Shown here in pieces: positions 20,420 to 43,619 of a DNA stretch of 64,000 nt. The position numbers and the translations under genes were made by a program. The DNA comes from a bacterium (GTDB lineage Bacteria; Electryoneota; RPQS01), in NCBI GenBank assembly GCA_013360195.1, contig JABWCQ010000014.1:1-64000 (forward strand), in the 5' to 3' direction. The notes under the pieces are model-generated. The model saw only the letters and a program-made list of their open reading frames with translations. It was not told the DNA's origin and ran no database searches. Every line of letters starts with the position of its first letter. Within the stretch, counting starts at the first letter, position 1.

Positions 20420-21109
20420 TCAGTCCAGCGGCACGCTGGCGGCCGGCATCACTTCATACACCTTCCCTCCCAGTCTCAATTTCATGCGTCTGTTCTTTAA
20501 CTCGGAACGGACGTTTTTCATCTCCGCCAGAATCCCCGTCCCCGGTTCGCTCCCCCGGTAGACAAAACTTCCTTCCAGCACTCGCTCCACTCCGTCATAC
20601 CAGTAGTGGCACAGCTTCGTGTGATAGTAAACTCCCGGCTCATGCTCGCACTCGCGAATGTCGTGTCCGCAAATTGAACAGCTCGGCTTTTGAAATGTAA
20701 AGGCAATCGAAGCCTCCGTGATAATTCCGCTGTCCAGCAGCACACGAAAATCCTCCGCGCCGCTGTGTGCCTTCGGCCAATAGAAATTCGGCACGACGTA
20801 CTTGTTGTTGAGATGCGGTTCAATATTGCCGCCGAAAAATCTCGCCACGGCGATTGACAACCGGTTGTGCCCGATGAGTGCCGGCGCGCCGTGTGTCAAT
20901 TGGAGAATGTGCTCCAAATCTCCCGTGCGGAAGCACCCGAAGTGCGAATCCACCGCATCTCCCGCCAGCCGGCAGCGGCGGACATGGATCTCATCGGCAG
21001 AGAGTGGCCGAAGCGGCGGGTTGGGCAGCCGGTTTATCAAGTCAAGTTCGCCGGACGGCTCCGGCGAAGCGAGGAGGGAAATCGGAAGAGAACGGGTCTG
21101 AAGTATCAT
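20420..21109 (-). CDS. Prohead protease-like protein (HK97/U35-like) with zinc knuckle
   Basis: The 229-residue protein shows an order of features that fits phage capsid-maturation proteases: GAPALIGHNR with His81 where U35 proteases have the catalytic His, and LLDSGIITEASIAF with Ser134 matching the SVGF-type serine motif. A knuckle follows, CSICGHDIRECEH (Cys144, Cys147, Cys154, His156), as in some prophage-type proteases. AGGAG lies about 9 bases upstream of the ATG. It is isolated from the capsid operon but on the same strand. The third catalytic residue cannot be assigned by eye, so the call is moderate. Confidence 0.55.
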   Translation of the reverse strand: MILQTRSLPISLLASPEPSGELDLINRLPNPPLRPLSADEIHVRRCRLAGDAVDSHFGCFRTGDLEHILQLTHGAPALIGHNRLSIAVARFFGGNIEPHLNNKYVVPNFYWPKAHSGAEDFRVLLDSGIITEASIAFTFQKPSCSICGHDIRECEHEPGVYYHTKLCHYWYDGVERVLEGSFVYRGSEPGTGILAEMKNVRSELKNRRMKLRLGGKVYEVMPAASVPLD

Positions 21110-21291
21110 ACTGCAAAGCTCCTGTTAAGGTTTACAAAGATTTAGCAACTCAAATCCTGCCTGCAAGGGTTTTCTTCAAGTGCGGCAAGACATTGTTTTA
21201 TGATTAAATATGACATAAATTGTCTCATTAATTGGCGGCACCTGCATGGGTTCCGGAGACCGCCGGGAGTTCAACCCGAAAGGACGAAGCA

Positions 21292-24200
21292 ATGAAAACG
21301 TTACGATGTCGTGTAATTCTAACCGCGCTTCTATGTTCTGCAGCCTCGAATCTGTTCGCTCAATCTCAAGTCTTCACTCCGCCCGACCAGCAGATTCTCC
21401 CCCCCAGCGCGCAGTTCTCTGTCTCCAATCCTGCCACGGTCACACTTCCGGCACAGGACAATCGTTCGTTCCTGATTGAAGACGAAGTCAATTACGCGCT
21501 TGCCATGGAGCAGGGAGTCATGCCGCCTGCGCAGATTGCCCGCCCGCAGGAAGTCAATTACAATCTGAATAACTCGGGCACATGGGAGACTCTCCCCGAC
21601 GGTTCGCGCATTTGGCGGCTGCGCATCGTCTCGCCTAACGCGACCGATTTGTGGCTGGTCTATGACCAGTGGCGCATCGTCAAGCCCTGCGAACTCTTTC
21701 TTTACAACGACGACCGCTCCATGGTGCTCGGCCCCTACACTGCCGTGGACAACTGGGACGGCACCAACGTCACTCCCATCACAAGCGGCGAGGCGGTGAC
21801 GCTCGAATACGTCGTGCCTGAAGGTCAGGAAGACATTGGCGAGCTTTCAGTGATGCGAGTGCTTCACGGCTACCGGCATTTCAATAATCGCGAGGCCCGC
21901 GACCGAGATGCGCTGGATGCCTTCGGCGACGCGCTGGCCTGCGAGATTAACGTAAACTGCTTCGGCTACATGCAGGAAGAAAAGCGCGCTGTCGCCCTGA
22001 TTGCTGATCCGATGGGCGGAACTTGCACCGGCACGATGCTCAACAACACGCTTCAAAACGGCGACCCGCTTTTCAACACCGCCTTTCACTGTCTGAACGG
22101 CAATCAGAACAACTGGCTCTTCTATTTCAATTACGAAAGCCCCAACTGCTCGCCCAATCAGAACGGCAGTTTGCAGTTCGTGATTGCCAACGCGACGTTG
22201 CTGATGTCCCATCAGGAATCCGACCACGCGCTCTTGCGACTCTCTCGTCCGCGTCCAGAGCGTCCCTTTATTCCCGCCTATATGGGCTGGTATCGTCCCG
22301 ACATCGCCGCAAGCAACTCGTACGGCATTCACCATCCGCGTGCCGACGTGAAGAAAGCGCACGAAGACTACGGCGCCGCAGTCAGCACCGACTGGAACGG
22401 TAACTGGCCTAACACGCACTGGCGCACCTACACCGACAACGGCACCTCTGAGCCCGGCTCGTCCGGATCACCGATGATAAACTCAGGTGGTTACGTCGTC
22501 GGATGTATGCACGGCGGCCCGACCCCCGATTGCGACCCCAACACGCAGGAGCAGGCCGTCTATGGCAAGCTCGCCACCGCATGGGAAGGCGGCGGCAATT
22601 CGTCTTCCCGTCTGCGCGATTGGCTCGACCCCAACAATAGCGGTGCGACCTTCGCCGGCTACTGGCAGCCCCAAGGTCCGCAAAATGATTCCTGCGGACA
22701 GCCGGGTTTTGAGACCATCACAACACTGCCCTTCTCGCGCTCCGGCAGCACACTCTTCGCCGCGAACAATTTCAACACGCTCAACTGCAACACCAACACT
22801 TCGCCGGAACTGGTGTACATGATGCAACTGCCTTGCGACCATAACGTCACCGTTTCGACCTGCGGCTCGAATTTTGATACTCAGCTCATGGTTTATGGAG
22901 TGAACTCCTGCATGGACTGGGTCTGGCTCGCGGGTTGCAACGATGACTTCTGCGGAACGCAAAGTCAAGTCTCCTTCACTGCCACCGGCGGCCAACTCTA
23001 CACCATCGTGCTCGAAGGCTATGGCTCGTCGTGGGGTAATTTCGTCTTGAACGTCACCGGCACATCATCCGGCGCGCAGGGCAACGCGCAGTGTCCCGGC
23101 TATGAAATCACTCAAGTCCCCTATTTCACCTACGGCGCGACGTGGTGCGGCAACGACGACGTCAATCCCGGTTGCCAGACCTTTGACAGCCAGGACGTGC
23201 ACTGGTATTGGGTTTCTCCCTATAATCAGGCCATGCGCGCGCGCACCTGCTTCATCAACTTTGACACCATTCTCGAAGTGCGTTACGGCGGAGCCTGTCC
23301 GGGCACATGGAGCGCCGGCTGCAATGACGACTACTACTGCGGCAGCGACGCCTTGGCCAGCACGGTCGTTTTCGGCGCCTCCGCCGGTGTGACCTACTAC
23401 ATTCACATGGACGGTTACAACGGCGCGGAAGGCATGGCCTCCCTCGAACTTGGAGCCTATAACGACGACTGCTCAAGTCCCATTATCGTCCCCAGCCTTC
23501 CTGCCAATTATGGCGGTGACACCCGCGCGGCGACGGACAACTTCGCCACTGTAATAGGTCCCAATTCAAAAGAGGTCTTCTTCCAATACACTTCGCCCGT
23601 TTGCCAGACCCTGTATATCAACACCTGCGACGACAATCTGACTCTCTATGATACGGGTCTTGAAGTGCGCACGGGCGGGCCCTGTCCCGGCACGACGCTT
23701 GTCGCCTTCAATGACGACGCGTGCGGCAACAACGGCCTCAAGAGCAATGTGATATTCAATGCTGAAGCCAATCGCACCTACTACATCATCGTCGGCGGTT
23801 TCGGCACGAGCGAAGGACAGTTCATGCTCTACCTGAACGGCGGACAGTCGCTTGGCGCTCCGGCCGGTGATGTTTGCGAAACCGCATTGCAAATTCCTTC
23901 GCTGCCGTTCTTTGACAACGGCAACACCTGCTGCATGGCGGACAATTACACTCCCTGTGTCGGCGTGGATTCCCGTGAAGTCGTGTATAACTACTTCTCA
24001 ACCTCCTGTCAGGAAGTCACCGTGTCGCTCTGCGGCTCCGGTTACGACACCGGATTGGGAATTTACGGCGGCGTTTGCCCCAATATTGCTCCGCTGATTG
24101 TCTGCAATGACGACAACTACTGCGGCGGCGTGTTCACACTGCAAAGCACGGCCACCTTCACCGCCGAAGCCAACACGAACTATCAGATTCTCATTCACGG

Positions 24201-24636
24201 CTACTCCACCAACTGCGGCAACTATGCCATCAATGTCACGGGTTCACCCTGTGTGGCGCCGACACCTGCCGCGGTGGATTCGTTGGTCATACTTGCCAAC
24301 GACGGCACCGATGATGCAAAACTCTTCTGGAATGCGACGGCCAACGCATTCTCCTATCAAGTTTACTACTCCACCGACCAGTCGAATATCGTTACTCCGG
24401 CCAATCTCTACCTGACCACGACATCCACAGATGCCACGATCAGCGGTGTTCTCTCGAATGCTCAACCGATGGGATTCTTCCAAGTCGTGGCTCTCGGATC
24501 GGACGGGGCAAGTCTGGCCGTCAACACGGGCGACATGCTGCCGAAGTCGGAAGCCGTGAACTCGGTCGAACTTCAAAACCCGCATCTGTCCATGACCGAT
24601 GTGATTGAAGAACAGGCCTATCTGAACGGCAAATAG
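21292..24636 (+). CDS. Secreted trypsin-like serine protease with PPC-like repeats
   Basis: The 1114-residue protein has a signal peptide (to about residue 24), a pro-region, and a chymotrypsin-fold protease resembling lysyl endopeptidase. The triad is visible as NTAFHCLN (His266), SDHALLRL (Asp311) and EPGSSGSP (Ser391). Four Cys-rich PPC-like domains follow (marker CGSNFDTQLMVY, then CNDDFCG, YTIVLEGYG), and a fibronectin-like C-terminus. The PPC domains share the pattern found in the PLDQG family genes. ATG 21292 follows AAAGGA; an earlier in-frame start at 21232 lacks signal character. The product likely degrades extracellular protein. Confidence 0.88.
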   Translation: MKTLRCRVILTALLCSAASNLFAQSQVFTPPDQQILPPSAQFSVSNPATVTLPAQDNRSFLIEDEVNYALAMEQGVMPPAQIARPQEVNYNLNNSGTWETLPDGSRIWRLRIVSPNATDLWLVYDQWRIVKPCELFLYNDDRSMVLGPYTAVDNWDGTNVTPITSGEAVTLEYVVPEGQEDIGELSVMRVLHGYRHFNNREARDRDALDAFGDALACEINVNCFGYMQEEKRAVALIADPMGGTCTGTMLNNTLQNGDPLFNTAFHCLNGNQNNWLFYFNYESPNCSPNQNGSLQFVIANATLLMSHQESDHALLRLSRPRPERPFIPAYMGWYRPDIAASNSYGIHHPRADVKKAHEDYGAAVSTDWNGNWPNTHWRTYTDNGTSEPGSSGSPMINSGGYVVGCMHGGPTPDCDPNTQEQAVYGKLATAWEGGGNSSSRLRDWLDPNNSGATFAGYWQPQGPQNDSCGQPGFETITTLPFSRSGSTLFAANNFNTLNCNTNTSPELVYMMQLPCDHNVTVSTCGSNFDTQLMVYGVNSCMDWVWLAGCNDDFCGTQSQVSFTATGGQLYTIVLEGYGSSWGNFVLNVTGTSSGAQGNAQCPGYEITQVPYFTYGATWCGNDDVNPGCQTFDSQDVHWYWVSPYNQAMRARTCFINFDTILEVRYGGACPGTWSAGCNDDYYCGSDALASTVVFGASAGVTYYIHMDGYNGAEGMASLELGAYNDDCSSPIIVPSLPANYGGDTRAATDNFATVIGPNSKEVFFQYTSPVCQTLYINTCDDNLTLYDTGLEVRTGGPCPGTTLVAFNDDACGNNGLKSNVIFNAEANRTYYIIVGGFGTSEGQFMLYLNGGQSLGAPAGDVCETALQIPSLPFFDNGNTCCMADNYTPCVGVDSREVVYNYFSTSCQEVTVSLCGSGYDTGLGIYGGVCPNIAPLIVCNDDNYCGGVFTLQSTATFTAEANTNYQILIHGYSTNCGNYAINVTGSPCVAPTPAAVDSLVILANDGTDDAKLFWNATANAFSYQVYYSTDQSNIVTPANLYLTTTSTDATISGVLSNAQPMGFFQVVALGSDGASLAVNTGDMLPKSEAVNSVELQNPHLSMTDVIEEQAYLNGK

Positions 24637-24663
24637 ACTTCCATCGCACTCCGGTTTTCCTGC

Positions 24664-24697
24664 AAGCAGCCCTTCAAGTCGAAGGGCTGTTTGTTTG
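24664..24697 (+). terminator. Intrinsic terminator after the serine protease gene
   Basis: A 9-bp stem (CAGCCCTTC with GAAGGGCTG, loop AAGTC) extends by A-T pairs and is followed by TTTGTTTGTGTTTTG. Confidence 0.7.
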
Positions 24698-24879
24698 TGT
24701 TTTGATATAAATTGATGAATTGTGTGAATTTCATTAGGACAAAGGAGGACAAATCAAGAGGCATGATTGAATTATTCTTGAACCGGAGGTTGACGTTTCG
24801 CAACACGAACCTTTTCAGGAACAGGGACTTGCTCTGAAACTGACCCACTAAGTTACTGTTTTTGTCAAAGGATAGTGAC
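24698..24879. other. Intergenic stretch with no supported gene
   Basis: This part of the 335-base gap between terminator and promoter contains a purine-rich AAAGGAGGACAAA and a 24-codon open frame (ATG 24763) whose ribosome site would be too distant. I see nothing that supports a gene. Confidence 0.4.
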
Positions 24880-24908
24880 TTGACTTGAGAGGGTTTCGGA
24901 TGTATATT
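24880..24908 (+). promoter_or_regulatory. Promoter of the T9SS-substrate gene at 24972
   Basis: TTGACT (24880-24885) and TATATT (24903-24908) are separated by 17 bases. The start would be near 24915, giving a leader of about 57 bases. Confidence 0.65.
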
Positions 24909-24971
24909 CGTAGCAGTTAATAGGACAAAAATGCTCCACTTTTACGGAGATACACTGACACTGGAGAACGA

Positions 24972-26438
24972 ATGGTTATGAAGAGACTTTTTAACACTTT
25001 ATGCGTGCTATTACTGCTGACTACGGTCGCTTCGGCTCAGCCGGACGATTGCACAATAGATGTCGGTGATTATCGCACTCAAACTCAGGGCGGCTGGGGC
25101 ACGAGTTGCAACGGTGGAAATCCCGGCTGCATTCGTGATACTTGGTTTCCCTCCGTATTTCCCGGTGGCTTGACTATCGGCGGCAATTTCACGATTCACT
25201 TCGCGACCTCAGCGGCTGTGGAGGTTTTCCTGCCCGCCGGCGGCACCCCGGATGTGCTGACACAAAATCATGTCAATCCACTTTCCACGGAAGCCGGTGT
25301 CTTTGCTGGTCAGGTAACTGCACTGTCTATCAGTGTGGCCTTCGGCAATGCCGGAGTCCCCGGCTTTGGCGACTTTGATTGGTTGGAAATCGGCGCCGGT
25401 CCCTTCATGGGCTACACGGTGGCCGAAGTTCTGGCATTGGCCAACGCCGTCTTGGGCGGTGACTACAGCGGCTTGCCGGTTGGAACCGACATTGGCGATC
25501 TGAACGAAGCCGTGGACAACATCAATCAGAACTTTGTGGACGGAACGGTCAACGAAGGAGTTCTGGTTGTTCCGCCGGATTGCGAAGTCACGCAGCCCTG
25601 CCCGCCGATGCCGCCCATCTGGGTGGAAGTCGGCAGCACGTTCTGCCTCGAGTATTGCGGCACCCCCGTTGAAGTCTATTGGTGCTGCCCCTTTGACGGC
25701 CAGCCCGTCTTCATCGCTGGTAATTGCCCGAACGGTGCACCGATTCCCGCAGGCTTGACGTGGGTTGCCTCCTACGATTCATCCGGTATCGAATGTCAAC
25801 TTCCGGGCGGCTACTGGCATGCCGTGTTTGAAGCCGCGGAAGACGGCTGCTTCTGCATCTTCTTCGAGCGTCAGTTGGCGGTCGAAATGCTCGACTACAC
25901 CGTCTCACAGAGCAATGGTGAGATTCACCTCGATTGGGCAACCGCCTCCGAAAACGGCAACGATTTCTTTGAAGTTTATCGCAACGGACAGAAGGTTGCG
26001 CAGATTGACGGCGCCGGATTCTCCGACGGCCGCACCAACTATGAATGGGTGGACCGCAATGTTACTCCGCGTCAGGTGTACAGCTATGAACTCATGACGC
26101 AGGACATCAACGGTATTCGCCGCAGCCATGGTGTGCGCACGATTGAGGCCGGTCTGTTCAACAGCGCCGTCATCACCGAGTTCGCGCTGAACCAGAACTA
26201 CCCGAACCCCTTCAACCCGACGACGGCCATCAGCTTTGATGTTCCGGAAGCGTCCGACGTCACGCTGACCGTTGTGAACGCGCTCGGTATTGAAGTGGCC
26301 AAGCTGGTCAACGGCCGTGTCGAAGCCGGTTCACACACCGTGCAGTTTGACGCATCCGGTTTGCCGACGGGTATCTACTTCTACGTCATGAAGGCCGGTG
26401 CCTTCAGCTCGACGCAGAAGATGCTTCTGCTGAAGTAA
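24972..26438 (+). CDS. Secreted protein with T9SS C-terminal sorting domain
   Basis: The 488-residue protein has a signal peptide (to about residue 23), a Cys-containing N-terminal domain (TQTQGGWGTSCNGGNPGC), a fibronectin-like domain (residues about 300-395) and a textbook T9SS type A sorting domain (NQNYPNPFNPTTAISFDVP through QKMLLLK). The N-terminal domain has a reeler- or collagen-binding-like look, but I do not recognise it. It should be transported across the outer membrane by the type IX system. GGAG lies 5 bases before ATG 24972; a second ATG is at 24978. Confidence 0.88.
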   Translation: MVMKRLFNTLCVLLLLTTVASAQPDDCTIDVGDYRTQTQGGWGTSCNGGNPGCIRDTWFPSVFPGGLTIGGNFTIHFATSAAVEVFLPAGGTPDVLTQNHVNPLSTEAGVFAGQVTALSISVAFGNAGVPGFGDFDWLEIGAGPFMGYTVAEVLALANAVLGGDYSGLPVGTDIGDLNEAVDNINQNFVDGTVNEGVLVVPPDCEVTQPCPPMPPIWVEVGSTFCLEYCGTPVEVYWCCPFDGQPVFIAGNCPNGAPIPAGLTWVASYDSSGIECQLPGGYWHAVFEAAEDGCFCIFFERQLAVEMLDYTVSQSNGEIHLDWATASENGNDFFEVYRNGQKVAQIDGAGFSDGRTNYEWVDRNVTPRQVYSYELMTQDINGIRRSHGVRTIEAGLFNSAVITEFALNQNYPNPFNPTTAISFDVPEASDVTLTVVNALGIEVAKLVNGRVEAGSHTVQFDASGLPTGIYFYVMKAGAFSSTQKMLLLK

Positions 26439-26459
26439 ATTAGGTCGCTGCGATTCCGG

Positions 26460-26492
26460 CAGGGCACCACGAAAGTGGTGCCCTGTTTTTTG
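26460..26492 (+). terminator. Intrinsic terminator after the T9SS-substrate gene
   Basis: A perfect 11-bp stem (CAGGGCACCAC with GTGGTGCCCTG) closes a GAAA tetraloop and is followed by TTTTTTG. Confidence 0.85.
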
Positions 26493-26560
26493 TTGCAACA
26501 CTTCCGGGCTTCCGCTCCTCCAATCCTGTGTTCCCCCACCTGCATAGAATTGGAGTTCAC

Positions 26561-27871
26561 ATGCTGTATTTGCTTCCGTTGCTGCTCACCGCCACCGTGC
26601 TCATGGCCGCAGACGCGCTGCCGCGCCGCGCCATGCTGGGTGCTCAGATTGCCCCGCCCACACCCGCTCAGTTGACCGCCGAAGACAAGACCTACGAGTC
26701 GGGCGTTGCGCTGCCGCAGGTCTTTCCCAACACCAGCGCCGCCGAGGCCGGACTGCAATCCGGTGATGTGCTGCTGACCGCCAATCACATTCCTTTGCGC
26801 GGCCCCCAGGATATCGGCCCCTTATTGAAATCGCAGGGCGTGGGCGCCGACGTGGTGTTTGACGTGCTCCGTGAAGGCAAAGTCTCGGCAGTCACGGTGC
26901 GCTTCAAGGAAGCTCCGCGCGAAACCTCCGCTGAGTTCGAAATCATCTACGAATCCGCAAACATTGACGGCTTCCTGCGCCGCCTGATTCTCACTAAACC
27001 CAAAGGCGACGGTCCCTTTCCGGTCGTGGTCCTGATGGGCGGTTTGGGCTGTTACAGTGTGGACGTTGCTCCGCCGCAGCCGTTTGCCTACCGTGATATT
27101 CTCTACGATTTCACGCGCAATGGCTTCGCCACCGTGCGCATCGAGAAAACCGGCATGGGTGACAGTCAGGGCGAGCCATGCAGCCAGCAGAGTTTCTTTG
27201 ACGAAACTCACGGCTTGACCGAAGGCATCAAGTCGCTCGACCGCTTCAAGTGGATGGACAAGTCGCGCATGATATACTTCGGACACTCGATGGGCGGATT
27301 GACGTCGCCGGTCGTCTATCAGGATATTCCCTGCGCGGGCATCGTGGCCATCGCGACGTCCGGCATTGACTGGAAGGAATACGAGATGAAAAACACACGC
27401 CGCCAGTTAGTGCTCGCGGGGGTTCCCTACGATTCCATTGAAATCTATCTTGACCGCAAGTACAAGGCGATGCACGAGATTTTTGTCGAGCATAAGACTC
27501 CCGAACAGATTCTCGCCGTGGACCCGACGCTCGCCGAAGACCTCGCCTATCCCGCGCATTACACCTTCATGCAGGAAGTGGCCGATTTGAGTTTAGCCGA
27601 CTACTGGAAGCATGTGGATACGCCCGTGCTGTTCGTGTGCGGCACGGCGGATTTTGTCGTGGCCGAAGAAGAGCACATCTACGCGCGCGACATTGTGAAC
27701 TCCTATCATCCCGGCCGTGCGGAATATGTCGCCATTCAGGGCATGGACCACGGGTTCAACAACGCGGGCACACAGATGAAGGCCTTCGAAGGCGGTTTTG
27801 GTCCGCCCGCCGTGCATCCTGATTTCTTCCCCACGGTGCTCGCCTTCTGTCAAAAGGCAATCCGCAAGTAG
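26561..27871 (+). CDS. Secreted PDZ-domain alpha/beta hydrolase
   Basis: The 436-residue protein has a signal peptide (MLYLLPLLLTATVLMAADA), a PDZ domain (about residues 45-115, with AAEAGLQSGDVLLTANH) and an alpha/beta-hydrolase domain with the nucleophile elbow GHSMGG (Ser243). The acid is probably the Asp in VCGTADFVV and the His that in GMDHGF. PDZ plus esterase/dienelactone-hydrolase architecture predicts an exported esterase or peptidase-like enzyme of unknown substrate. ATG 26561 has GGAG 5 bases upstream; an in-frame start at 26528 lacks signal character. Confidence 0.82.
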   Translation: MLYLLPLLLTATVLMAADALPRRAMLGAQIAPPTPAQLTAEDKTYESGVALPQVFPNTSAAEAGLQSGDVLLTANHIPLRGPQDIGPLLKSQGVGADVVFDVLREGKVSAVTVRFKEAPRETSAEFEIIYESANIDGFLRRLILTKPKGDGPFPVVVLMGGLGCYSVDVAPPQPFAYRDILYDFTRNGFATVRIEKTGMGDSQGEPCSQQSFFDETHGLTEGIKSLDRFKWMDKSRMIYFGHSMGGLTSPVVYQDIPCAGIVAIATSGIDWKEYEMKNTRRQLVLAGVPYDSIEIYLDRKYKAMHEIFVEHKTPEQILAVDPTLAEDLAYPAHYTFMQEVADLSLADYWKHVDTPVLFVCGTADFVVAEEEHIYARDIVNSYHPGRAEYVAIQGMDHGFNNAGTQMKAFEGGFGPPAVHPDFFPTVLAFCQKAIRK

Positions 27872-27892
27872 AACTCGAACTATTCTTCAATC

Positions 27893-27923
27893 AGAGCAGC
27901 CCAAGCGGCTGCTCTTTTTTTTT
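27893..27923 (+). terminator. Intrinsic terminator after the PDZ-hydrolase gene
   Basis: A 9-bp stem (AGAGCAGCC with GGCTGCTCT, loop CAAGC) is followed by an uninterrupted run of Ts. Confidence 0.85.
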
Positions 27924-28002
27924 GGCGCATTTCACGGGTTTGGTTCAATCGTTCGGTTGAGATGAACCGAATCTTGCGTTGATTGCGCGCAATGAGCACA
28001 TA

Positions 28003-28032
28003 TTGAAAATATGTTATTCCATGTCTTATTAT
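28003..28032 (+). promoter_or_regulatory. Candidate promoter of the lipoprotein gene at 28105
   Basis: TTGAAA (28003-28008) and TATTAT (28027-28032) are 18 bases apart, about 70 bases upstream of the ATG. Confidence 0.45.
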
Positions 28033-28104
28033 ACTTACCATACCCGGCATGGCAGTTGCGTTGACGAGTCACAACATGTCACGAACTCACGAAGAGAGAT
28101 GCGT

Positions 28105-28713
28105 ATGCTGAAGACGACAATGACGGGTTCCCGCAAGTATGTTTCGTTTGTATTGATTCTCATTGCCACATTCGCAATTTCCTGCTCGGAAATGAATCCG
28201 GTCAGCTCAACCGCGAGCGAGCCGTCGGAAGTGGCGCTGGGAGCACAGCACATTCCCTTTGATCTTGTCAATCTGCAATTGCCCGAAGGGTACAGGGTGC
28301 TGCGCTCGTCAAGTTCATTGGACGAATGCGATTCGGTTTCGGTGTCACAGCTCTGCCGCAGATTGCTGCCGCTCAATCTCCTGAGCATCCTCAATCTCAC
28401 GTCCCTGCACGTGCAGGGCAGCGACTTGCCGCACAACCAGACCATTACAATGGTGATGCCGAACACCTGCGAAGCGGTGGTGGATTTGTATCCGCATCCC
28501 TTCCAGTTCAACGGCACGGTGGAGCTGCGCTGGCTGCTTCCGCAGGTTCGCTACGGGCAGTTGCTGAACCCTGATGATATCGCCGCCTTCTATGTGCATG
28601 ACGACGGCACCTGCGAGCTTGCCGACCAGTCATGGGGGCCGCTCAATCTCTATTTGACGGTGCGCACGAATCACTTTTCGCGCTACATTATCGCCAGCCG
28701 CAACAACAACTGA
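28105..28713 (+). CDS. Lipoprotein, function unknown
   Basis: The 202-residue product has a signal peptide with a lipobox (TFAISC). The mature part has a beta-rich C-terminus (FQFNGTVELRWLLPQ, then FYVHDDGTC) that resembles ZU5-like or choice-of-anchor beta domains, but no motif is firm. ATG 28105 is preferred because GAGAG lies about 6 bases upstream; ATG 28099 is also possible. A strong terminator follows. The gene stands alone between two terminators. Confidence 0.72.
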   Translation: MLKTTMTGSRKYVSFVLILIATFAISCSEMNPVSSTASEPSEVALGAQHIPFDLVNLQLPEGYRVLRSSSSLDECDSVSVSQLCRRLLPLNLLSILNLTSLHVQGSDLPHNQTITMVMPNTCEAVVDLYPHPFQFNGTVELRWLLPQVRYGQLLNPDDIAAFYVHDDGTCELADQSWGPLNLYLTVRTNHFSRYIIASRNNN

Positions 28714-35476: not shown

Positions 35477-35773
35477 ATGAAGACAATCGCGGCACTGTTG
35501 TTGACTTTGCTCGCTCTGTAGACCCATGCGCGGACAAACACCGTTGCTCTGGCTGCGCTCCAGCCTCAAGAACAGTCAGCTTTGGCAGTTTTCCGTTCGG
35601 TTCGGGCTGGCAGACTGCGGACGCTCTGTTCGCTTCCGACATCACGAGCATCGTGCTCGTGGTTGAGTGCTCAGCGGCGGCTTCGACACCTTCTGCCCGG
35701 CCTCTGTTTCAATCGCAGTAATCAGCAAGTTTGAAGTGGATTCAATTCTGCTTCAAACGAGAATCAAGTAATT
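35477..35773 (+). pseudogene. Decayed gene for a small exported protein
   Basis: ATG 35477 opens a signal-peptide-like MKTIAALLLTLLAL that meets TAG after 14 codons. Downstream, protein-like segments continue in shifting frames: FGSGWQTADALFASDITSI, then SGGFDTFCPASVSIAVISK running to a TAA at 35771-35773. A good terminator follows (35795). The pattern is a short gene broken by a stop and two frameshifts. It may be remnant of a paralogue of a neighbouring surface protein, but no match is clear. Confidence 0.45.
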
Positions 35774-35794
35774 GCTTGAGTAGTTTTAGATGAG

Positions 35795-35824
35795 CGACCT
35801 GAAATTCCGGGTCGCTTTTTTTTT
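35795..35824 (+). terminator. Intrinsic terminator after the decayed small gene
   Basis: A 7-bp stem (AGCGACC with GGTCGCT) around a 10-base loop is followed by nine or more Ts. Confidence 0.75.
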
Positions 35825-35854
35825 CGCTCCCGAGCCGAGAATTGTCGATTTATG

Positions 35855-35882
35855 TTGACAAGTGTAGTCATATTTATATAGA
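35855..35882 (+). promoter_or_regulatory. Promoter of PLDQG family member 4
   Basis: TTGACA (35855-35860) and TATAGA (35877-35882) are 16 bases apart; AAGGAGAGATGG precedes ATG 35913. Confidence 0.5.
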
Positions 35883-35912
35883 TTAGATGATTCCCAAACC
35901 AAGGAGAGATGG

Positions 35913-38471
35913 ATGAAGAGACTTTTGACTGTTGTTTTACTTTTGTGGTGTTGTATGACAATTGCTGCCACATCACAGGTCCCGTTGTCGCTTGTTGGCA
36001 AAGCTCCGGCAATTGAAATTGCAGAGCTTGAGGACATGATTGCCAAGGCAAAGGCCAACGGCCAGACGCCAGACCCAGCATGGACAACTCGTATTCGCGA
36101 GTTGATTCCGTTGGTGAAAGGCCATGCGAGCAAGGTGCCTGCTGATCTCCCTGTGATACAAGCTGACAGAGGCTTCGCACCGGGTGCGGTGATTCGCCAA
36201 GTGGAATTGACCCGGCTTGAACAGCAGATCAAGGAGTTGGAGTTTCAAATTGACGGTGGTTTCAGCTCAGTTGAACCGGATGAAATTACGCGTTTGAATC
36301 TCAAAGATCAGTTGAACGACCTGTATTCGCAGCGCGTCGTTCGTGATCCTGCCAATCCGTTGGATCAAGGCAATGACACCTGTCCTGCAACACCGATCAA
36401 CGGATTGCCGTACACGGACACGGGCACAACTTCGGGTCGTGCCAACAACTTCAGTCCTGCTCAGATTGGCGGCGCATGCTTCAATAACAATGCACCGGAC
36501 GTAATCTATTCTTTCGTTCCGCCGTACACGCAGAGCTATACGATAACGACGGATGGCAGCAGCTATGACACATATATTTACATTCAGCGGTTCGGAACCT
36601 GCCCGGGAGATTCGACGCTTGAATGCAATGACGACGGCGGAATAGGTGTAAATTCGCTGATTACGCGCACGTTGACAGCAGGCGTCACGTATCACATTAT
36701 CGTGGACGGATACGCCTCCAGCTCGGGCAACTATGTTTTGAACGTGTTTGACAACTGCAATATTGAGTGCCAGCCAGGTGATATTCAGGAGTGTTTTGAA
36801 GTTCGCGACAGCACACATCTGCAGAACAACTGCAATGGCGGCTGCGAGAATCCGTTGTTTGGCGGAGTTGAATCCTGGCAGGACATACAGCCGTGCCAGA
36901 CGGTGTGCGGCCGTTTGTTCACCGGTGTTCGTCCGAACGGCGGCAATTACCGCGACGTGGACACCTATCGTTTCACATTAACGGAAGCATGCTCGCTCGC
37001 GATCACTTTGAACTCAGAGGTGGGCTATACGCTTACTGTTACAACAGCGAGCTGCCCCTGGAGTTTCTTGTGGACTTATACGTCATACCCGTATCCGTGT
37101 TCGACCGCGACGCACGTCACTCCATGTTTCCAACCGGGAACTTACTCTGTCATGGTCCGTCCGAATACGTTCACGGGGATTAATGATTTTCGCACGTACA
37201 GAATGCAGGTGGGTTTGATTCCGTGCAGTGGCTGCCAAATTGACGCGTTCATTCAAGCGCCCGGCAGCGGCGCGTGGCACACGTGCGGCGCGGGTAACGA
37301 CAACAATTTGCGTCCGAGCGAAGATTACACGTTCTGTGTGAACATTCCTCAAAGCGGCGAGTGGACGTTCTCAACGTGCAACGATGACAGCATTTGGGAC
37401 AGCTATATCTATTTGAGCAATCAGTGCAACGGCAGTGTGATCGCTGAAGACGACGACGCCTGCGGCGGAATCGGTCTGTCGGTGATTAACTGTGTCGAAT
37501 TGCAAGCGGGCACATATTATCTAACCGTTGAAGGCTGGTCAAGTTCGCGTTGCGGGCCGTTTGTGCTGAACGTGTTCGAGTGTGTCGGCTCGTGCTGTTA
37601 TGGCAACCCCGGTAATCCGTCGTGCGCCTACATCGGGCCGAACGCCTGTGACAGTTTGGGCGGAAGCTGGACAAACCTTGAGCCCTGTTCGACGGGCGCA
37701 TGTTACACACGTCCGGAGTGCGGAGAAGGCGAGATTATCTTCAGTCAGCTTCCGTTCCTTCCCAATGAAGCCGGCACAGGGCTCTTGTCGCATGTGGATT
37801 ATGGCACACTGTACAGTGATAACTACTCGGTCAACAGTGTCGTGGGTTCTGTTCATTTCTGGGGTTTCCCGGTCTTTTGCAATGGCGCACCGGAAACGTT
37901 TTTGCTGACGTTCGGCAACGGGACGGACACCTGCCAATACACGGTGACCGCAACGGGAGCACAGTTTCCGCAGCTCTATTTCGGAAGTTACCTTGTCTCC
38001 CAATATGAGGTGGAGATTTCTCCGCCGTGTGAATTGCTTTCCGGCAATCTCACCATTCAAAAGCTTGGTGATCCGAGTTGCCTATGGTATTGGGCGACGT
38101 CACCTTTTGGGGATAACATTCGTCCGGTGGCTCCGAATTATGAGTTTGCCTTCTGCTTGGATCAGGCGCCCTGTGAGATTGACAGCCTGACCTATATTTG
38201 GAATTCTCCGGGCATCGCCACGTTGCGCTGGTATCAGAATCTGCCCGGCGTTGTGACGATCTGGTACACCACGGATCCGAATGCGATTTATCCAGCCGGA
38301 TATTCTTTTGTAACAAACCCCTATCCTGCCGGCAACAATTCCTTAGCGACCAACGCCAACTTAGCAGATAATGTCAGAGTCGTTCTGACGTTGAACTGCA
38401 CACCGAATTCCGCCGCGGCATTACCTCCGCCGCCAAAGGTTTTGAACTTGAGTGTTGACAGCCAGGAATAG
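35913..38471 (+). CDS. Secreted Cys-rich protein, PLDQG family, member 4
   Basis: The 852-residue protein is a full-length paralogue of member 3: signal peptide, DPAWTTRIRELIPLVKGH helix, ANPLDQGNDTCPA, PPC-like domains (SSYDTYIYIQ, ECNDDGG, YHIIVDGYA), central Cys-rich region with CYGNP, and the same C-terminal beta region (VHFWGFPVFCNGAPETF). The two genes flank the decayed gene at 35477. AAGGAG precedes ATG 35913. It ends in a long acidic/Pro tail and lacks a T9SS sorting domain, so its anchoring is unknown. Confidence 0.82.
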   Translation: MKRLLTVVLLLWCCMTIAATSQVPLSLVGKAPAIEIAELEDMIAKAKANGQTPDPAWTTRIRELIPLVKGHASKVPADLPVIQADRGFAPGAVIRQVELTRLEQQIKELEFQIDGGFSSVEPDEITRLNLKDQLNDLYSQRVVRDPANPLDQGNDTCPATPINGLPYTDTGTTSGRANNFSPAQIGGACFNNNAPDVIYSFVPPYTQSYTITTDGSSYDTYIYIQRFGTCPGDSTLECNDDGGIGVNSLITRTLTAGVTYHIIVDGYASSSGNYVLNVFDNCNIECQPGDIQECFEVRDSTHLQNNCNGGCENPLFGGVESWQDIQPCQTVCGRLFTGVRPNGGNYRDVDTYRFTLTEACSLAITLNSEVGYTLTVTTASCPWSFLWTYTSYPYPCSTATHVTPCFQPGTYSVMVRPNTFTGINDFRTYRMQVGLIPCSGCQIDAFIQAPGSGAWHTCGAGNDNNLRPSEDYTFCVNIPQSGEWTFSTCNDDSIWDSYIYLSNQCNGSVIAEDDDACGGIGLSVINCVELQAGTYYLTVEGWSSSRCGPFVLNVFECVGSCCYGNPGNPSCAYIGPNACDSLGGSWTNLEPCSTGACYTRPECGEGEIIFSQLPFLPNEAGTGLLSHVDYGTLYSDNYSVNSVVGSVHFWGFPVFCNGAPETFLLTFGNGTDTCQYTVTATGAQFPQLYFGSYLVSQYEVEISPPCELLSGNLTIQKLGDPSCLWYWATSPFGDNIRPVAPNYEFAFCLDQAPCEIDSLTYIWNSPGIATLRWYQNLPGVVTIWYTTDPNAIYPAGYSFVTNPYPAGNNSLATNANLADNVRVVLTLNCTPNSAAALPPPPKVLNLSVDSQE

Positions 38472-38496: not shown

Positions 38497-38530
38497 CGGC
38501 TCGAGAAACCTCGGGCCGCTCTTTTTTTTT
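38497..38530 (+). terminator. Intrinsic terminator after PLDQG member 4, abutting terL
   Basis: A 9-bp stem (CGGCTCGAG with CTCGGGCCG, loop AAAC, one wobble pair) is followed by nine Ts. The T run touches the stop codon of the convergent terL gene. Confidence 0.75.
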
Positions 38531-39915
38531 CACCATTTGACAATGCGCGGTACGGGCTGCCGTTCTTCGACAGCTTCGAGATTGACGAAGAAGTAGCGCA
38601 GCGCATCGAGCGAGTGGTCGGAGTCACCATCCTTGACCGGCTCGTCCTTGTCTGCGTTCCATTGATAGGTGCGCAGGTCTTGAATAAGTTTGCGGCAGCG
38701 CGGCGAGATAAAGAGCGAGACTTTACCTGCGGCATCGCGGAAGGCGGCCTTGACAAGTTCAACGCCGGTGCTGACTCGCGAGGAGCGGTAGCGGAGTTTC
38801 ATGCCGTTGCGAAGCAGATAATCCACGGGCGAGATGCCGCTGTCCTGCGCGGCGGCTCCGGAGGGGTCGCAGGAGCTCCACAGGTAGTCGGTTTCCTTGA
38901 GACCGAAGGAGATATCCGTGCGCAGGATGGCGGCGTGCATGGCCTCGGTGGTGGCATCGCGGCCTTCCCATTCGGAGAACACGACATATTCGCCGGAGGG
39001 GAGTTTTTGCAGCCAGAGTGCGAACGGCTTGCGGAAGCCGAAATCAATGGTGCGGAAGAGCGGCCATTCCTTGCGGGGATAAAAATCATCCTTGAGAATG
39101 TGCACGACAGGGTCGAACTCGGAATAGACGAGCCCGTCGAAAGAGTCAAAGGAGATTTCCTGTTCGCGGCTCCATTGCGATTTGGACAGTCCGCGCGAGG
39201 CCGATTTCTTCCACTCTTCTCCGGCGCGCGCGGGATGCTGCGAGTAGTGAATGCGGTGGATGTGGAACGGTGAGCAGAGGGGTCCTTCACTTCGTTCAGG
39301 ATGACAACTCTCATCACATTGTTGCACAAGCTTCGCAAAGAGGTTGAGCGCGCCGCCGGAAGAGGAGACGCCGATGAAGGAGCCTCCGCTTTCAATGGCG
39401 GGCTGCAAAGCCGTCCAGATTTGCATATCGAAGGGAGTGAAAGCCATTTCATCCCAGAAGACGGCGGTGGGGGAATACATGCGCGGGCCGTCCGGTGTGG
39501 CGGGCAGGGACAGCAATCGCGAATGCAGTCCGCCGAATTCGAGTTCGGATTTATTGTTGGTCGTGAGAACAGGTTTCATAAACGCCGGGAGCTGCGAGAT
39601 GATGAAGCGCGCGCGGTCGAGCAGCTCTTCGGCACAGCGTTCATTGCGCGAGAGGAAGAGATAGACACCGGGCTGTTTGAAGAGCGCTCGCCAGACGAAC
39701 AGCGCGACGGCGCTCCATGTGACCATCATCTGCCGGGATTTGGGCACGAGTAGATAGCGCTGATTCAGAGTGAGATAGGCGAGCACGCGCAGATAGTCGA
39801 AGTCGGGATAGAGTTTGATTCCGTGCGCGGGGTCTTGCGTTTTGACATAGGTGGTGAGGAAGCGCCACGGGTCTCGCGAACAGGCGAACAGTTCCTGAAA
39901 TTCGTGTTTGGTCAT
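38530..39915 (-). CDS. terL: Phage terminase large subunit (packaging ATPase-nuclease)
   Basis: The 461-residue protein has the TerL signature: Walker A-like VPKSRQMMVTW (57-67), Walker B AVFWDE (151-156), coupling motif SSSGG (184-188) and a C-terminal RNase H-like nuclease with Asp residues at TIDFGF (Asp291), SCDPSG (Asp350) and DSDHSLDALRY (433-440). TerL pumps DNA into the prohead through the portal and cuts it. All catalytic motifs look intact. Residues 203-215 (ESCHPERSEGPLC) come from a dispersed repeat inserted in frame at 39283-39306, in the linker between motor and nuclease. The start overlaps the upstream small gene as ATGA. Confidence 0.9.
   Translation of the reverse strand: MTKHEFQELFACSRDPWRFLTTYVKTQDPAHGIKLYPDFDYLRVLAYLTLNQRYLLVPKSRQMMVTWSAVALFVWRALFKQPGVYLFLSRNERCAEELLDRARFIISQLPAFMKPVLTTNNKSELEFGGLHSRLLSLPATPDGPRMYSPTAVFWDEMAFTPFDMQIWTALQPAIESGGSFIGVSSSGGALNLFAKLVQQCDESCHPERSEGPLCSPFHIHRIHYSQHPARAGEEWKKSASRGLSKSQWSREQEISFDSFDGLVYSEFDPVVHILKDDFYPRKEWPLFRTIDFGFRKPFALWLQKLPSGEYVVFSEWEGRDATTEAMHAAILRTDISFGLKETDYLWSSCDPSGAAAQDSGISPVDYLLRNGMKLRYRSSRVSTGVELVKAAFRDAAGKVSLFISPRCRKLIQDLRTYQWNADKDEPVKDGDSDHSLDALRYFFVNLEAVEERQPVPRIVKW
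39283..39306 (-). repeat. CHPERSEG-type dispersed repeat (family B) inside terL
   Basis: On the plus strand it reads TCCTTCACTTCGTTCAGG followed by ATGACAA. Matching copies are at 54863-54886 and, with a different centre, at 41405-41443 and 48942-48973. In terL it is read in frame as CHPERSEGP, a peptide known from many unrelated bacterial proteins. Confidence 0.75.
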
Positions 39916-40118
39916 TGCTGCTCTCCGGTGGCTGCGTTCTGCGCCTGTCTGAGAATTTCGATGGCATGCTCGGTGGTAAGAGTGTCATCGGGTTGCTCGG
40001 CGGCGGCCAATTCGAGATAGAGTTTGATGGCTGAGACGTTTGTGCTTTTGTTTTCGCAGGCGAGAGCCAGCAGATTGTCCAGCACTTTTTGTTTTGATTT
40101 TTTGTCGAAGATATTCAT
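39912..40118 (-). CDS. Small helical protein upstream of terL, possible small terminase
   Basis: The 68-residue protein (MNIFDKKSKQKVLDNLLAL...) is predicted helical, with a segment KSTNVSAIKLYLELAAAE that resembles the helix-turn-helix of small terminase subunits. It starts one base after the connector stop and overlaps the terL start by 4 bases (ATGA), so it is tightly coupled to terL. A longer reading to 40238 would run back inside the connector gene and is unlikely. Size is short for TerS (usually 100-180 residues), so it may be a truncated or DNA-binding-only form. Confidence 0.6.
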   Translation of the reverse strand: MNIFDKKSKQKVLDNLLALACENKSTNVSAIKLYLELAAAEQPDDTLTTEHAIEILRQAQNAATGEQQ

Positions 40119-40119
40119 G

Positions 40120-40944
40120 TTATTCGATAAGCGTTGAGCGGAGTGAGTGGGGAACGACAAAGGGAGCGAGGACATTCCATGCGGCTGCGAACCATTTGTC
40201 GGAGAGTTGCTGCCATTCGCGGGCGCGGGAGTAGGCATCGCCTCCGGTGTTGCGGGTGAGCATCAGAGCCGCCATGCCGCGCGCGACGATGGAGAGCGTC
40301 AAGTAGGCGGTTCCGGTTTTCAATCCCTGGTCGGTGGACGACGAGTTGTAGCCTTCCCGAAGTGCGCGCACGACGATATCATCGGCTTCGATGATGGCCT
40401 GCTCGATGAGCAGGTCTTCCGCGGCGCCCTGCGCGACGGTGTAATCCACGAGCACGGAAGCTCCGTCGGGAATCGCGCTGCCGGCGGTGCGGCGGAGCGT
40501 TCCCTCGTCATGGTCAAGTACATAGTCGGTAGCGGGTTCGAAGACATCGTAGTAGCCGTACCAGACGCTGACGGGAAAGGAATTGGGAATCGCGCCGGAT
40601 GCCATACGTGAGATGAGTCCGGCCTCGTGATTGACGCGAAAATCAAATTCTTCGCTGAAGATGGAGCTTAACGCCAAGTCGGAGGCGACGGCGACGCTGC
40701 CGCGAATGAGTTGCTTGTTGCTCAGGCTGATTTCATCTTCATCGGAGAGCACTACAGCCGTTTCGAGTGTGGCTTTGTCGGAGGCGACGCGCTTGACGAC
40801 GCCGCTGTCGGTTTCGAGACTGAAGTGCGGCAGCGCGATTTCGGTGGTGCCGGAGAGAGTGACGCGGACGTTCTCGATTCGCTGCGAGGGCAGATTGGCC
40901 GCGACAAGGTGTTTGCGAATGATGTCGAGAGTTGTGAAAGCCAT
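40120..40944 (-). CDS. Head-completion/connector-like protein
   Basis: The 274-residue protein begins with MAFTTLDIIRKHLVAANLP, has a long beta-rich insert (about residues 60-170, DYVLDHDEGTLRR) and ends in a helical domain (EDLLIEQAIIEADDIVVRALREG). Short N-terminal helix plus C-terminal helices resembles gp6/gp15-type head-tail connector proteins, here enlarged by a beta domain. It lies between the capsid and terL genes, where connectors are common. No tail gene follows, so the ring may close or decorate the portal vertex rather than join a tail. The assignment is by context and rough plan. Confidence 0.5.
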   Translation of the reverse strand: MAFTTLDIIRKHLVAANLPSQRIENVRVTLSGTTEIALPHFSLETDSGVVKRVASDKATLETAVVLSDEDEISLSNKQLIRGSVAVASDLALSSIFSEEFDFRVNHEAGLISRMASGAIPNSFPVSVWYGYYDVFEPATDYVLDHDEGTLRRTAGSAIPDGASVLVDYTVAQGAAEDLLIEQAIIEADDIVVRALREGYNSSSTDQGLKTGTAYLTLSIVARGMAALMLTRNTGGDAYSRAREWQQLSDKWFAAAWNVLAPFVVPHSLRSTLIE

Positions 40945-40953: not shown

Positions 40954-41322
40954 TTAGACGCGGTTAATGGCAAAGACGAGGGTGACTTGCAAGGTGGAGT
41001 TAAACGGCACACCGGTGACTTGGAGCGCGGTGGAGCTGCCGTTCAGCCGGGCGCGCACGGTGAAGTTTGAACCGGCATTTTGACAGAAGACGCTGAGCCG
41101 GTCGCCCGCGGAAAAGGTGATACTGTCGTCGTCGGTGTAGGTGTTGGAGCCGTCGAAGACGATGATCTTCACGAGCGTTCCGGCGAAGGGAACGGGAATT
41201 CCGTCGGCGGCAATTCCACCGGGGCCGGAGAGATATTGTGAAGCGGTCGTAGTCGTGCCGCTGAAAGAGAAGAAGATAAGCGGTTGACTGGCAAGCGCAT
41301 AAGCGAGAGTGGGTTTTGACAT
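40954..41322 (-). CDS. Small beta-rich structural protein of the capsid operon
   Basis: The 122-residue protein (MSKPTLAYALASQPL...) is almost all predicted beta strand, with Ser/Thr/Gly-rich turns (FSFSGTTTTASQYLSGPGG). It resembles small phage fibre, spike or decoration proteins. I chose ATG 41322; an in-frame start at 41364 overlaps a repeat. It lies between the capsid gene and the connector gene, 9 bases from the latter. A leader of the type CCTCTTTCAAATTTC precedes it, similar to the leader before the capsid gene. The exact role is unknown. Confidence 0.55.
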   Translation of the reverse strand: MSKPTLAYALASQPLIFFSFSGTTTTASQYLSGPGGIAADGIPVPFAGTLVKIIVFDGSNTYTDDDSITFSAGDRLSVFCQNAGSNFTVRARLNGSSTALQVTGVPFNSTLQVTLVFAINRV

Positions 41323-41534: not shown

Positions 41535-42605
41535 TTAGTAGTCGGACATGGCGATGGCGTCGTCCACCATGATGGTGTAAGCGGATTCTTTGGAGACGAC
41601 GGCGGATTCGAGCTTGTGTGAGATAATTTTTTCAGCTTCGATGACGAGCGGTTGCGCCACGGATTCGCGGATGGCGAAACGATGGTCGAGTGCGGCGAAT
41701 TTCGTGGCGGTGGCACCTTCGACGGCGACCAAACGCGTGTTCAAGGGGAGGAAGGTGCGATAGTCGCCGGTATTGCTGAAGGCTCCGCCCTGAAAGGCTT
41801 GCGCATCCTGCAGCTCGGTGATTTTCAACACGGTTTCGATATCGGATTTCGCTCCGAGAAGATGAGTCATGCGCGCGGGGCCGTCGAAGGCAAGGGCGAG
41901 ATGAACCAAGTCGGAGTAGGCGAAAGTTCCCGCCGAGCCGTTGAAGGAGTTCGAGGGCGCGGGTGAAGTGCCGTCACCGTTGATGATGATGTTGTAGATT
42001 TCGGAGATTTCATCATTGGCAAGCTGCGCGCCAATCCACCAGAGGAAGACGCGGAATTCGGCGAGCTTTTGATTCTTGAGAATGCGGTAGCTGAAATCGA
42101 ATTGCCGTCCGCGGTCAATCATGCCGGCTTCTTTTTGACGATAGGCGAGCTTGACGACGGGATAGGCGGCGCTATCGTTGCGGCGCTGAGCTTTCTTGGG
42201 AAAATCGGTTTTGATATAGAGCGGAGTGACGGTCGGTCCGCGCTCGGGGATAATGGCAGCGACGAGCTCTTCGGGGTCCTGCACCATTTTATAGCCGCGG
42301 CGGATTTCGCGCGAAACGTATTCGGGAGCGAGAATCATTCCGGGACCGGAGAGAAATTGTTCGAGGGTGGTGGCATTGCGGCCGGAGAGCGTGATTTCCG
42401 CGAGAAAGAGCTGACGTTCGAAGGCGTCGAGCGGCGCATCGAGAGAGCCGTCGGGCTTACGCGGCGAAGGGTCGAGTTCTTCGAGCAGTTCGGTGAATGA
42501 GAGTCCTCGCTCTTGGGCTTCGGAGTAGAGCGCAAGGTTGCCGGAGCGGGAGTGGTCGAGAATTTTTTCGCGGAGAGTGTATGCTTGGGAAAAGTCGAGA
42601 GACAT
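41535..42605 (-). CDS. Major capsid protein, HK97-like
   Basis: The 356-residue protein has features of HK97-fold capsid proteins: an N-terminal helical arm (MSLDFSQAYTLREKILDHSRS), a middle region with the pattern AAYPVVKLAYRQKEAGMIDRG, a spine-helix region (LAEFRVFLWWIGAQLANDEI), and a C-terminal beta domain. It is flanked by decoration and connector-like genes, and followed downstream by terL. I chose ATG 42605 over a start at 42815, whose extra residues are His/Arg-rich and overlap the decoration gene. The leader lacks a ribosome site. No delta domain for the protease is obvious. Confidence 0.72.
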   Translation of the reverse strand: MSLDFSQAYTLREKILDHSRSGNLALYSEAQERGLSFTELLEELDPSPRKPDGSLDAPLDAFERQLFLAEITLSGRNATTLEQFLSGPGMILAPEYVSREIRRGYKMVQDPEELVAAIIPERGPTVTPLYIKTDFPKKAQRRNDSAAYPVVKLAYRQKEAGMIDRGRQFDFSYRILKNQKLAEFRVFLWWIGAQLANDEISEIYNIIINGDGTSPAPSNSFNGSAGTFAYSDLVHLALAFDGPARMTHLLGAKSDIETVLKITELQDAQAFQGGAFSNTGDYRTFLPLNTRLVAVEGATATKFAALDHRFAIRESVAQPLVIEAEKIISHKLESAVVSKESAYTIMVDDAIAMSDY

Positions 42606-42682: not shown

Positions 42683-43126
42683 TCAGGCATCGAGGAGAAC
42701 ATCGCAGGTGGTGAGTGTGGTGTCCACGGCGATGACCATTCCGCGATGAGTTGTTCCGCCGGTGGGGACATCGGTGGACGTTGTGGCGCGGCGGACTTTG
42801 CCGGTGCCGTCGCACTCGACTTTTTGTCCGACGGCGGGTGCGGTTCCGGAATAGAGGAATTTTGCGACTCCGGTGACTTGCACGGTGCAGAGAGCAGGCA
42901 CGGCGGTGCCGGACTGCAATTCATCGGAGACGGAGATGACTTTTCCAATCAGCCGCGAGCCTGCCGCGCCCATGCCGGCTTTGTTGTTGTCGGCCATTGC
43001 GGCGGCGGTGAGATTGGAGTCGATATCCGACCAGGTGAAGTCCTTGTTGGCGGTTGTATCCACTTCAAAGGTGAGCAGGAGATTCGCTCCGGCGCCTTCG
43101 TTATTGACTTTGTATGTTGATGGCAT
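42683..43126 (-). CDS. Capsid decoration protein-like (DUF2190-type)
   Basis: The 147-residue protein is beta-rich. It resembles phage head-decoration proteins of the DUF2190 or lambda gpD-like kind, with segments GSRLIGKVISVSDELQSG, KFLYSGTAPAVGQKVECDG and THRGMVIAVDT. Such proteins cement the capsid and often precede the capsid gene, as here. ATG 43126 is chosen; a GTG at 43144 is the alternative. It lies 77 bases before the capsid start, separated by the hairpin at 42647. Confidence 0.65.
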   Translation of the reverse strand: MPSTYKVNNEGAGANLLLTFEVDTTANKDFTWSDIDSNLTAAAMADNNKAGMGAAGSRLIGKVISVSDELQSGTAVPALCTVQVTGVAKFLYSGTAPAVGQKVECDGTGKVRRATTSTDVPTGGTTHRGMVIAVDTTLTTCDVLLDA

Positions 43127-43241
43127 GTTTTGCTGGTGATGCACCTCATGCGAGAGCGCGGGTGCTTCCTGTTGTTGGTGAATAGATGAAGAGTTGTTGC
43201 TGCCATTGCGGATTTTGAGACGCGCAACGGCGGAAGTGCGA

Positions 43242-43619
43242 TTAGTTTGACCCGAGACCTGAGCGGTGCAGCTGGTCGGCGGGAATGCGGGCGGCGCGGG
43301 AGTTCATTGCCGTTCTGAGCATGGGCGAGAGCTGAAAGACCTGATTGAAATGCAGCGATGCTTCGCGGCGCGCGGAGAGAAGCTGCTTGCCGCTCAGGGT
43401 GAAGGCGTGGTCGGGCTCGGGGCAGGCGGGAATCGCGCCGGCGAGTTCGATTTTGGCTTTGAGTTCGCGGCGGAGTTCGTCCTCATAGAGCTGAATCAGT
43501 GCGGCTTGCGCATCGGCTTCAAGAGCGGCGATGGCAAGTTGATGGTTGAGTTCATCGAGATCGAGATTTTCGGGATTGGCCAGGAGGGCTTGAGCTTTTG
43601 AGAGTGGTTTTGAAATCAT
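43242..43619 (-). CDS. First gene of the capsid operon, possible scaffold, function unknown
   Basis: The 125-residue protein is strongly helical and charged (DLDELNHQLAIAALEADAQAALIQLYEDELRREL), then has a Cys/Pro-containing middle (CPEPDH) and a basic C-terminus. Helical, Ala/Gln/Glu-rich small proteins just before the capsid gene are often scaffolds, but no motif proves it. ATG 43619 lies 42 bases downstream of the -10 box of a consensus promoter (43661-43689), so this is the first gene of the operon that runs to terL. Confidence 0.55.
   Translation of the reverse strand: MISKPLSKAQALLANPENLDLDELNHQLAIAALEADAQAALIQLYEDELRRELKAKIELAGAIPACPEPDHAFTLSGKQLLSARREASLHFNQVFQLSPMLRTAMNSRAARIPADQLHRSGLGSN

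Follow-up and report, generated by a model that had tools for sequence, protein, structure and literature searches.

The window analysed here is a stretch of 64,000 nucleotides (C14:1-64000) from a bacterial genome of 3.23 Mb that is 96% complete (G000). Between positions 20420 and 43619 it holds nine open reading frames (ORFs), all on the minus strand, all present and open, and none with an internal stop, among which are genes for a capsid protein, a portal protein and both terminase subunits (TerS and TerL). The original prediction had listed these nine genes as a domesticated capsid or gene transfer agent (GTA)-like element, and their coordinates match, although relatives and alignments shift the likely starts of four of them, namely capsid (42605), decoration protein (43126), beta-sandwich protein (41322) and TerS (40118). 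Together with what is found in related genomes, the nine genes probably represent a GTA-like element that is kept by its host.

Seven of the nine genes form an operon of 5.1 kb with intergenic gaps of -4 to 212 bp. Its first gene (43242..43619) encodes a protein of 125 amino acids that is a scaffold candidate by its position; BLAST homologs were found only in G001, G007 and G010, all of the same family, where the gene always lies directly upstream of the decoration gene. A promoter-like sequence (TTGACA-17-TATATT, 43661..43689, minus strand, 11 of 12 consensus bases) is located 42 nt upstream of this gene and is suggestive only, with three such sites observed in the region against 1.6 expected by chance. 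The second gene (42683..43126, ORF to 43144) encodes a capsid decoration or cement protein with homologs in 30 genomes, which matches phrog_4588 virion structural protein (2e-9) and, under the cut-off, PF09956 phage cement (0.0025). It is followed by an HK97-type major capsid protein of 356 amino acids (41535..42605, ORF to 42815), which in profile searches matches phrog_3922 major head protein (E 1.1e-37) and, under the family cut-off, PF25209 (1.7e-4). Between the capsid and adaptor-like genes, 29 genomes keep a gene for a small beta-sandwich protein (40954..41322, ORF to 41364), whose structure model (pLDDT 89) has weak fold matches to galectin-like and tail-fibre domains, making it a candidate spike or fibre head, or a second decoration protein; a position-specific scoring matrix comparison of its N-terminus with phage tail spikes encoded upstream of the adaptor gave no significant result, since 6-7 of the 529 null ORFs reached equally high scores. 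The adaptor-like protein (40120..40944), with an N-terminal beta domain and C-terminal helices, may belong to the neck; its model (pLDDT 85) has a local match to the baseplate of phage phi812 (E 1.2e-6), the sequence has a local match under the cut-off to NF052337 tail tube (2e-7), and homologs occur in 26 genomes. A truncated TerS (39912..40118) precedes TerL (38530..39915), which has 461 amino acids, comprises an ATPase and an RNase H-like nuclease and matches phrog_2 TerL (E 3.3e-20). As the original prediction had stated, the motifs of TerL are intact: KSRQM, WDE, D291, D350, D433 and D437 are invariant in all 17 aligned sequences.

The two remaining genes lie apart from this block, the portal gene 8.4 kb from TerL and the protease-like gene another 7.7 kb from the portal gene. 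The portal protein (28799..30115, 438 amino acids) matches phrog_3753 portal (E 3.5e-30). The sole family match of the prohead-protease-like protein (20420..21109, 229 amino acids) is phrog_16951, an unnamed PHROG (1.7e-17); H81 and S134 are invariant, E132 is nearly so, and a zinc-finger-like Cys/His insert carries an invariant CxxC...CxH motif (C144, C147, C154, H156). A homolog of this gene lies directly 3' of the portal gene in compact relatives, where TerL, portal and protease are directly consecutive, which shows that portal and protease belong to the same set; a protease activity is predicted. Sequence searches of the PDB with capsid, portal, protease, adaptor and beta-sandwich proteins returned no convincing phage relative.

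Within the window's candidate phylum, 34 of the 39 genomes, from all eight families, have the capsid gene in single copy, and the portal gene was found in 33 genomes; one or both were found in 37, the exceptions being G002 and G005, of which G005 has an amidase and an XhlA-like gene at the family's usual site. Orthologs of capsid and portal share 44-89% identity across the eight families, and chance ORFs are rejected on this ground. In a second phylum, reached via a record labelled 'candidate division KSB1', the portal gene is present in five of six genomes, and the same operon is found wherever contigs allow. Most of the loci examined share one gene order, namely scaffold candidate, decoration, capsid, beta-sandwich, adaptor-like, TerS (where present), TerL, portal and protease, with small gaps, while in the second phylum scaffold candidate, decoration and capsid are followed by a few variable genes and then by adaptor, TerS, TerL, portal, protease and XhlA-like or holin-like genes. 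In the position of the scaffold candidate, family f5 and the second phylum have a different protein of 120-165 amino acids, and its comparison with the window's protein was not significant. Divergently upstream of the operon, f5, f7 and f8 carry an XRE-type regulator (L079:14483-14956, L069:6917-7417 and others) with a conserved C-terminal motif (HPGL..LL...ML.SIR...FF.D.L..YRR), a candidate regulator of the element.

The element is chromosomal and lies between host genes, at three sites in the window and at one to three in relatives. Six family members (G000, G001, G003, G005, G007 and G010) share a methyltransferase-like host gene beyond the protease/XhlA end, represented in the window by an O6-methylguanine methyltransferase-like DNA-binding domain gene on the plus strand (19950..20351; PF01035, 6.5e-22). 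The locus extends over 23 kb in the window compared with about 11 kb in compact relatives. According to Pfam, the gap between TerL and portal holds three plus-strand exported-protein genes (30166..38471; LVIVD repeats; two large, one with a PPC domain), and that between portal and protease holds plus-strand exported-protein and hydrolase genes (21232..28713; Trypsin-like/PPC; Por_Secre_tail; PDZ/hydrolase); neither group belongs to the element. Opposite-strand exported-protein genes also occupy the portal-protease gap in G003, G006 and G008, and the locus of G001, from the same genus, is a mirror image of that of the window, its inserted exported-protein genes again lying on the opposite strand. 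TerL, portal and protease are still contiguous in G007, and the exported-protein genes of both window gaps are absent from those gaps in G007 and the compact relatives; hence the scattering in the window is derived, not ancestral, and the gene orders indicate that opposite-strand exported-protein genes later split a compact operon within the window's family. No complete prophage with tail and integrase genes was seen around the loci in the relatives examined. Large exported proteins of one related group (cluster c15) occur several times in the window's genus (window 13661-38471; L149, L150, L151).

Trees of seven element genes were compared with the host rpoB tree against a permutation null. 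Capsid shares 16 of 22 splits with rpoB, TerL 13 of 14, portal 15 of 22 and adaptor 13 of 16 (null maximum 3), and the distance correlations with rpoB for these four genes range from 0.81 to 0.94 (capsid 0.94, TerL 0.90; null maxima 0.23-0.34), those of the decoration and beta-sandwich proteins being lower (0.58-0.72). The ratio of nonsynonymous to synonymous substitution rates (dN/dS, Nei-Gojobori) between G000 and G001 is 0.10 for capsid, 0.085 for portal, 0.08 for protease and 0.22 for TerL, values that show purifying selection on the core genes. A dying prophage is rejected by the open frames and low dN/dS, and a mobile prophage or satellite by the single copy and the congruent trees. The portal tree does not separate one domestication from two in the two phyla. 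The proposal that the set is kept by the host is thus supported by its single copy throughout the phylum, the congruence with rpoB and purifying selection, and further by the TerS and the lysis genes of relatives described next; the synteny and dN/dS comparisons that had been suggested as a check gave a conserved order and low core values.

A TerS model built from four f1 sequences was searched in a set of nine sequences and, at E 1e-13 to 2e-6, matches longer proteins of G017 and the second phylum that have an N-terminal helix-turn-helix (HTH); one of these in turn matches phrog_24579 terminase small subunit (1e-7). The window's TerS, at 68 amino acids, aligns only with the C-terminal part of these homologs and has lost the HTH. 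Five f1 genomes and G021 have a TerS without HTH; in G017 and the second phylum, TerS retains it. The absence of an N-terminal DNA-binding domain from TerS has been proposed as a mark of GTA-type terminases, the Rhodobacter GTA (RcGTA) being such a case (PMC6854486); the window's TerS bears this mark, those of G017 and the second phylum do not.

Among the genes scanned between and beside the nine window genes, none could be recognised as a tail, lysis, integrase, repressor or replication gene, in agreement with the original prediction, and the conserved operon of either phylum likewise contains no recognised tail, integrase or replication gene. Of the integrase, replication and mobility genes that mark prophages or satellites, none was recognised in the operon or among the conserved genes around it, a scan that did not include attachment sites. 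Lysis genes (XhlA-like, holin-like, endolysin) adjoin the operon in many relatives: after the protease come an XhlA-like gene in f1 and f2 and, in several f3 relatives, genes for an exported protein, a holin-like protein and an Amidase_2 endolysin; two second-phylum genomes add a SleB-type hydrolase. A C10-like exported protein was not found in the window's genome. Directly 3' of the protease, f2, f3 and f5 encode a single-copy family of exported beta-rich proteins that has no Pfam match (L070:15981-16541).

Annotated phage records match the element at only 22-30% identity, and the operon itself recurs, at 43-59% identity, on IMG/VR contigs 6-10 kb long. Five of these contigs (L123-L127) nest among f3 chromosomal copies in the portal tree and are therefore probably chromosomal fragments. 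Three longer IMG/VR records of uncultured viruses (L129-L131, 33-55 kb) have a portal of about 35% identity and adaptor homologs, which likewise lie upstream of TerL and portal in the order adaptor, HTH gene, TerL position, portal, and L129 and L131 also have decoration and capsid homologs in their records; a protease-like domain is shared as well, within a larger protein. In contrast to the element, they encode tail spikes (clear in L131, weak in L129 and L130), other phage genes and, in L130, a tape-measure protein; they are distant true phages. Some members of the second phylum and the related phages have the protease-like domain fused to a large C-terminal extension (L170 6765-8960, L171 7169-9649, L135, L136). 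In MT835508.1 (L088), homologs of TerL, portal, protease and capsid (E 1e-13 to 1e-47) are clustered within 5.6 kb (16572-22215), with no tail gene recognised in the cluster and ribosomal-protein genes of bacterial type in its flanks, but the capsid is only about 28% identical and the order is TerL-portal-protease-capsid. This record, deposited as 'Bacteriophage sp.', consists mostly of bacterial chromosome, including a ribosomal-protein operon, and its host would be a Gram-positive gut anaerobe.

GTAs have been defined by six features: tailed-phage-derived proteins that form tailed-phage-like particles, packaging of mostly random host DNA, full endogenization, often over several loci, a size too large to be packaged whole, mostly vertical inheritance with host co-diversification, and DNA delivery to other cells (PMC9662315). 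Three of the six are found from sequence, namely tailed-phage-derived proteins (from genes alone, by similarity to portal, TerL and capsid families), full endogenization over several loci and vertical inheritance with co-diversification (seven trees compared with rpoB). For the packaging of random host DNA, the window's TerS without HTH gives indirect support. The closest described system in plan is the Faecalibacterium GTA (FpGTA I/II), likened here by its description to an element known from its genes: it has a compact chromosomal operon of TerS, TerL, portal, scaffold and capsid outside the Alphaproteobacteria, a putative TerS without an obvious DNA-binding domain, and holin and endolysin genes, which the element has in relatives (PMC12946183). 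FpGTA particles measure about 40 nm, have no identifiable tails and contain about 9 kb of host DNA, and a second operon with baseplate and fibre genes lies about 125 kb away in one strain (PMC12946183). FpGTA differs in its hosts and in this baseplate/fibre operon, while the element is common to an entire phylum and has co-diverged with its hosts. RcGTA (Rhodogtaviriformidae), again likened by description, is similarly phage-derived, chromosomal, multi-locus and vertically inherited, retains TerL, portal and capsid together with a TerS lacking an HTH, and is released by host lysis (PMC9662315, PMC6854486). For a siphovirus-like tail as in Rhodogtaviriformidae, no gene was recognised in the cluster, and PhageMin_Tail is absent from G000. 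An encapsulin-type nanocompartment, an HK97 shell without portal or terminase, does not fit, since portal, TerL and TerS are present and conserved. No published description of the element was found in a search covering part of the literature.

We consider it likely that the nine genes encode a GTA-like, short-tailed or tailless, DNA-packaging viriform that the host has kept, and that they are what is left, in scattered form, of a single old operon acquired from a relative of tailed phages. In this model, the scaffold and capsid proteins would assemble a small HK97-type shell on the portal, which the protease would mature, and TerL would pump host DNA into it by headful packaging; with a TerS lacking the DNA-binding HTH, packaging is proposed to show no preference for particular sequences. 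The adaptor-like protein might then close the neck and the beta-sandwich protein act as a minimal spike, and particles would be released, in relatives, through the adjoining XhlA-like, holin-like and endolysin genes and deliver their DNA to other cells. A further-reaching version, which can be put forward only tentatively, is that the element belongs to a distinct GTA lineage of great age, with little or no tail, which is fixed in one candidate phylum and also occurs in another; a minimal beta-sandwich spike would have replaced the tail, and the element would serve the group as its resident DNA-exchange machine.

Several points weigh against a GTA-like viriform. The element is known from genes of metagenome-assembled genomes alone, and neither particles nor packaged or transferred DNA have been observed. 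TerS of the second phylum retains the HTH, so HTH loss is not universal, and no TerS was recognised in f3 and f5. The adaptor and beta-sandwich genes evolve faster in the window's genus (dN/dS 0.36 and 0.44), and some dS values of the G000-G001 comparison are near saturation. Searches of G000 and G001 detected neither an XhlA-like gene nor an Amidase_2 endolysin, whereas XhlA persists in other members of the family, and PhageMin_Tail, the only tail family searched genome-wide, is absent from G000 in a search that was positive in 9 of 14 controls, which leaves release and delivery without a mechanism in this genome. The undetected lysis genes and the faster-evolving pair would also be expected if the element were ancestrally GTA-like and now eroding in the window's genus, where it may no longer yield functional particles; the operon is moreover cut into three by splits at two sites, and the missing capsid and portal of G002 and G005 indicate that loss does occur in the window's family. 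Erosion, the main rival reading, nevertheless seems unlikely in view of the nine open frames, the dN/dS of about 0.08-0.10 for capsid, portal and protease, the intact catalytic residues of TerL and the frequent dispersal of known GTAs over several loci (PMC9662315).

A tailed GTA with its tail genes unlinked elsewhere in the genome would have precedents in multi-locus GTA genomes (PMC9662315) and in the distant second operon of FpGTA (PMC12946183), but the PhageMin_Tail result in G000 and the conserved cluster of both phyla, in which no tail gene was recognised, speak against it, and we think it improbable. Without a recognised tail gene and with delivery unproven, the phage-derived capsid could instead have been co-opted as an altruistic lysis or DNA-release device, a storage compartment or an anti-competitor particle, the last in the manner of PBSX-type phage-derived particles, which package DNA yet act as killers (PMC12946183). 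A TerL with both active sites intact, a TerS and a portal, all of them conserved, would be superfluous for a protein-only compartment, and such co-option appears slightly less probable still. Capsid, packaging and protease genes without tails resemble those of capsid-forming satellites. This likeness and the related phages in IMG/VR would favour recurrently acquired prophages or capsid-encoding satellites over one inherited element, an explanation made very improbable by the single copy, the congruence with rpoB, the fixed host flank in the family, the nesting of L123-L127 among f3 chromosomal copies and the lack of any recognised integrase or replication gene in the operon.

Only a small number of GTAs are known, most of them from Alphaproteobacteria. 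If the element of these uncultured bacteria is indeed a GTA-like viriform, the HTH-bearing and truncated forms of TerS across lineages would allow the step from phage to GTA to be traced along the host tree. Short 'viral' contigs in public collections can, moreover, be chromosomal GTA-like operons. As a minor observation on the window itself, the GC skew changes from negative to positive at about 29000-40000.

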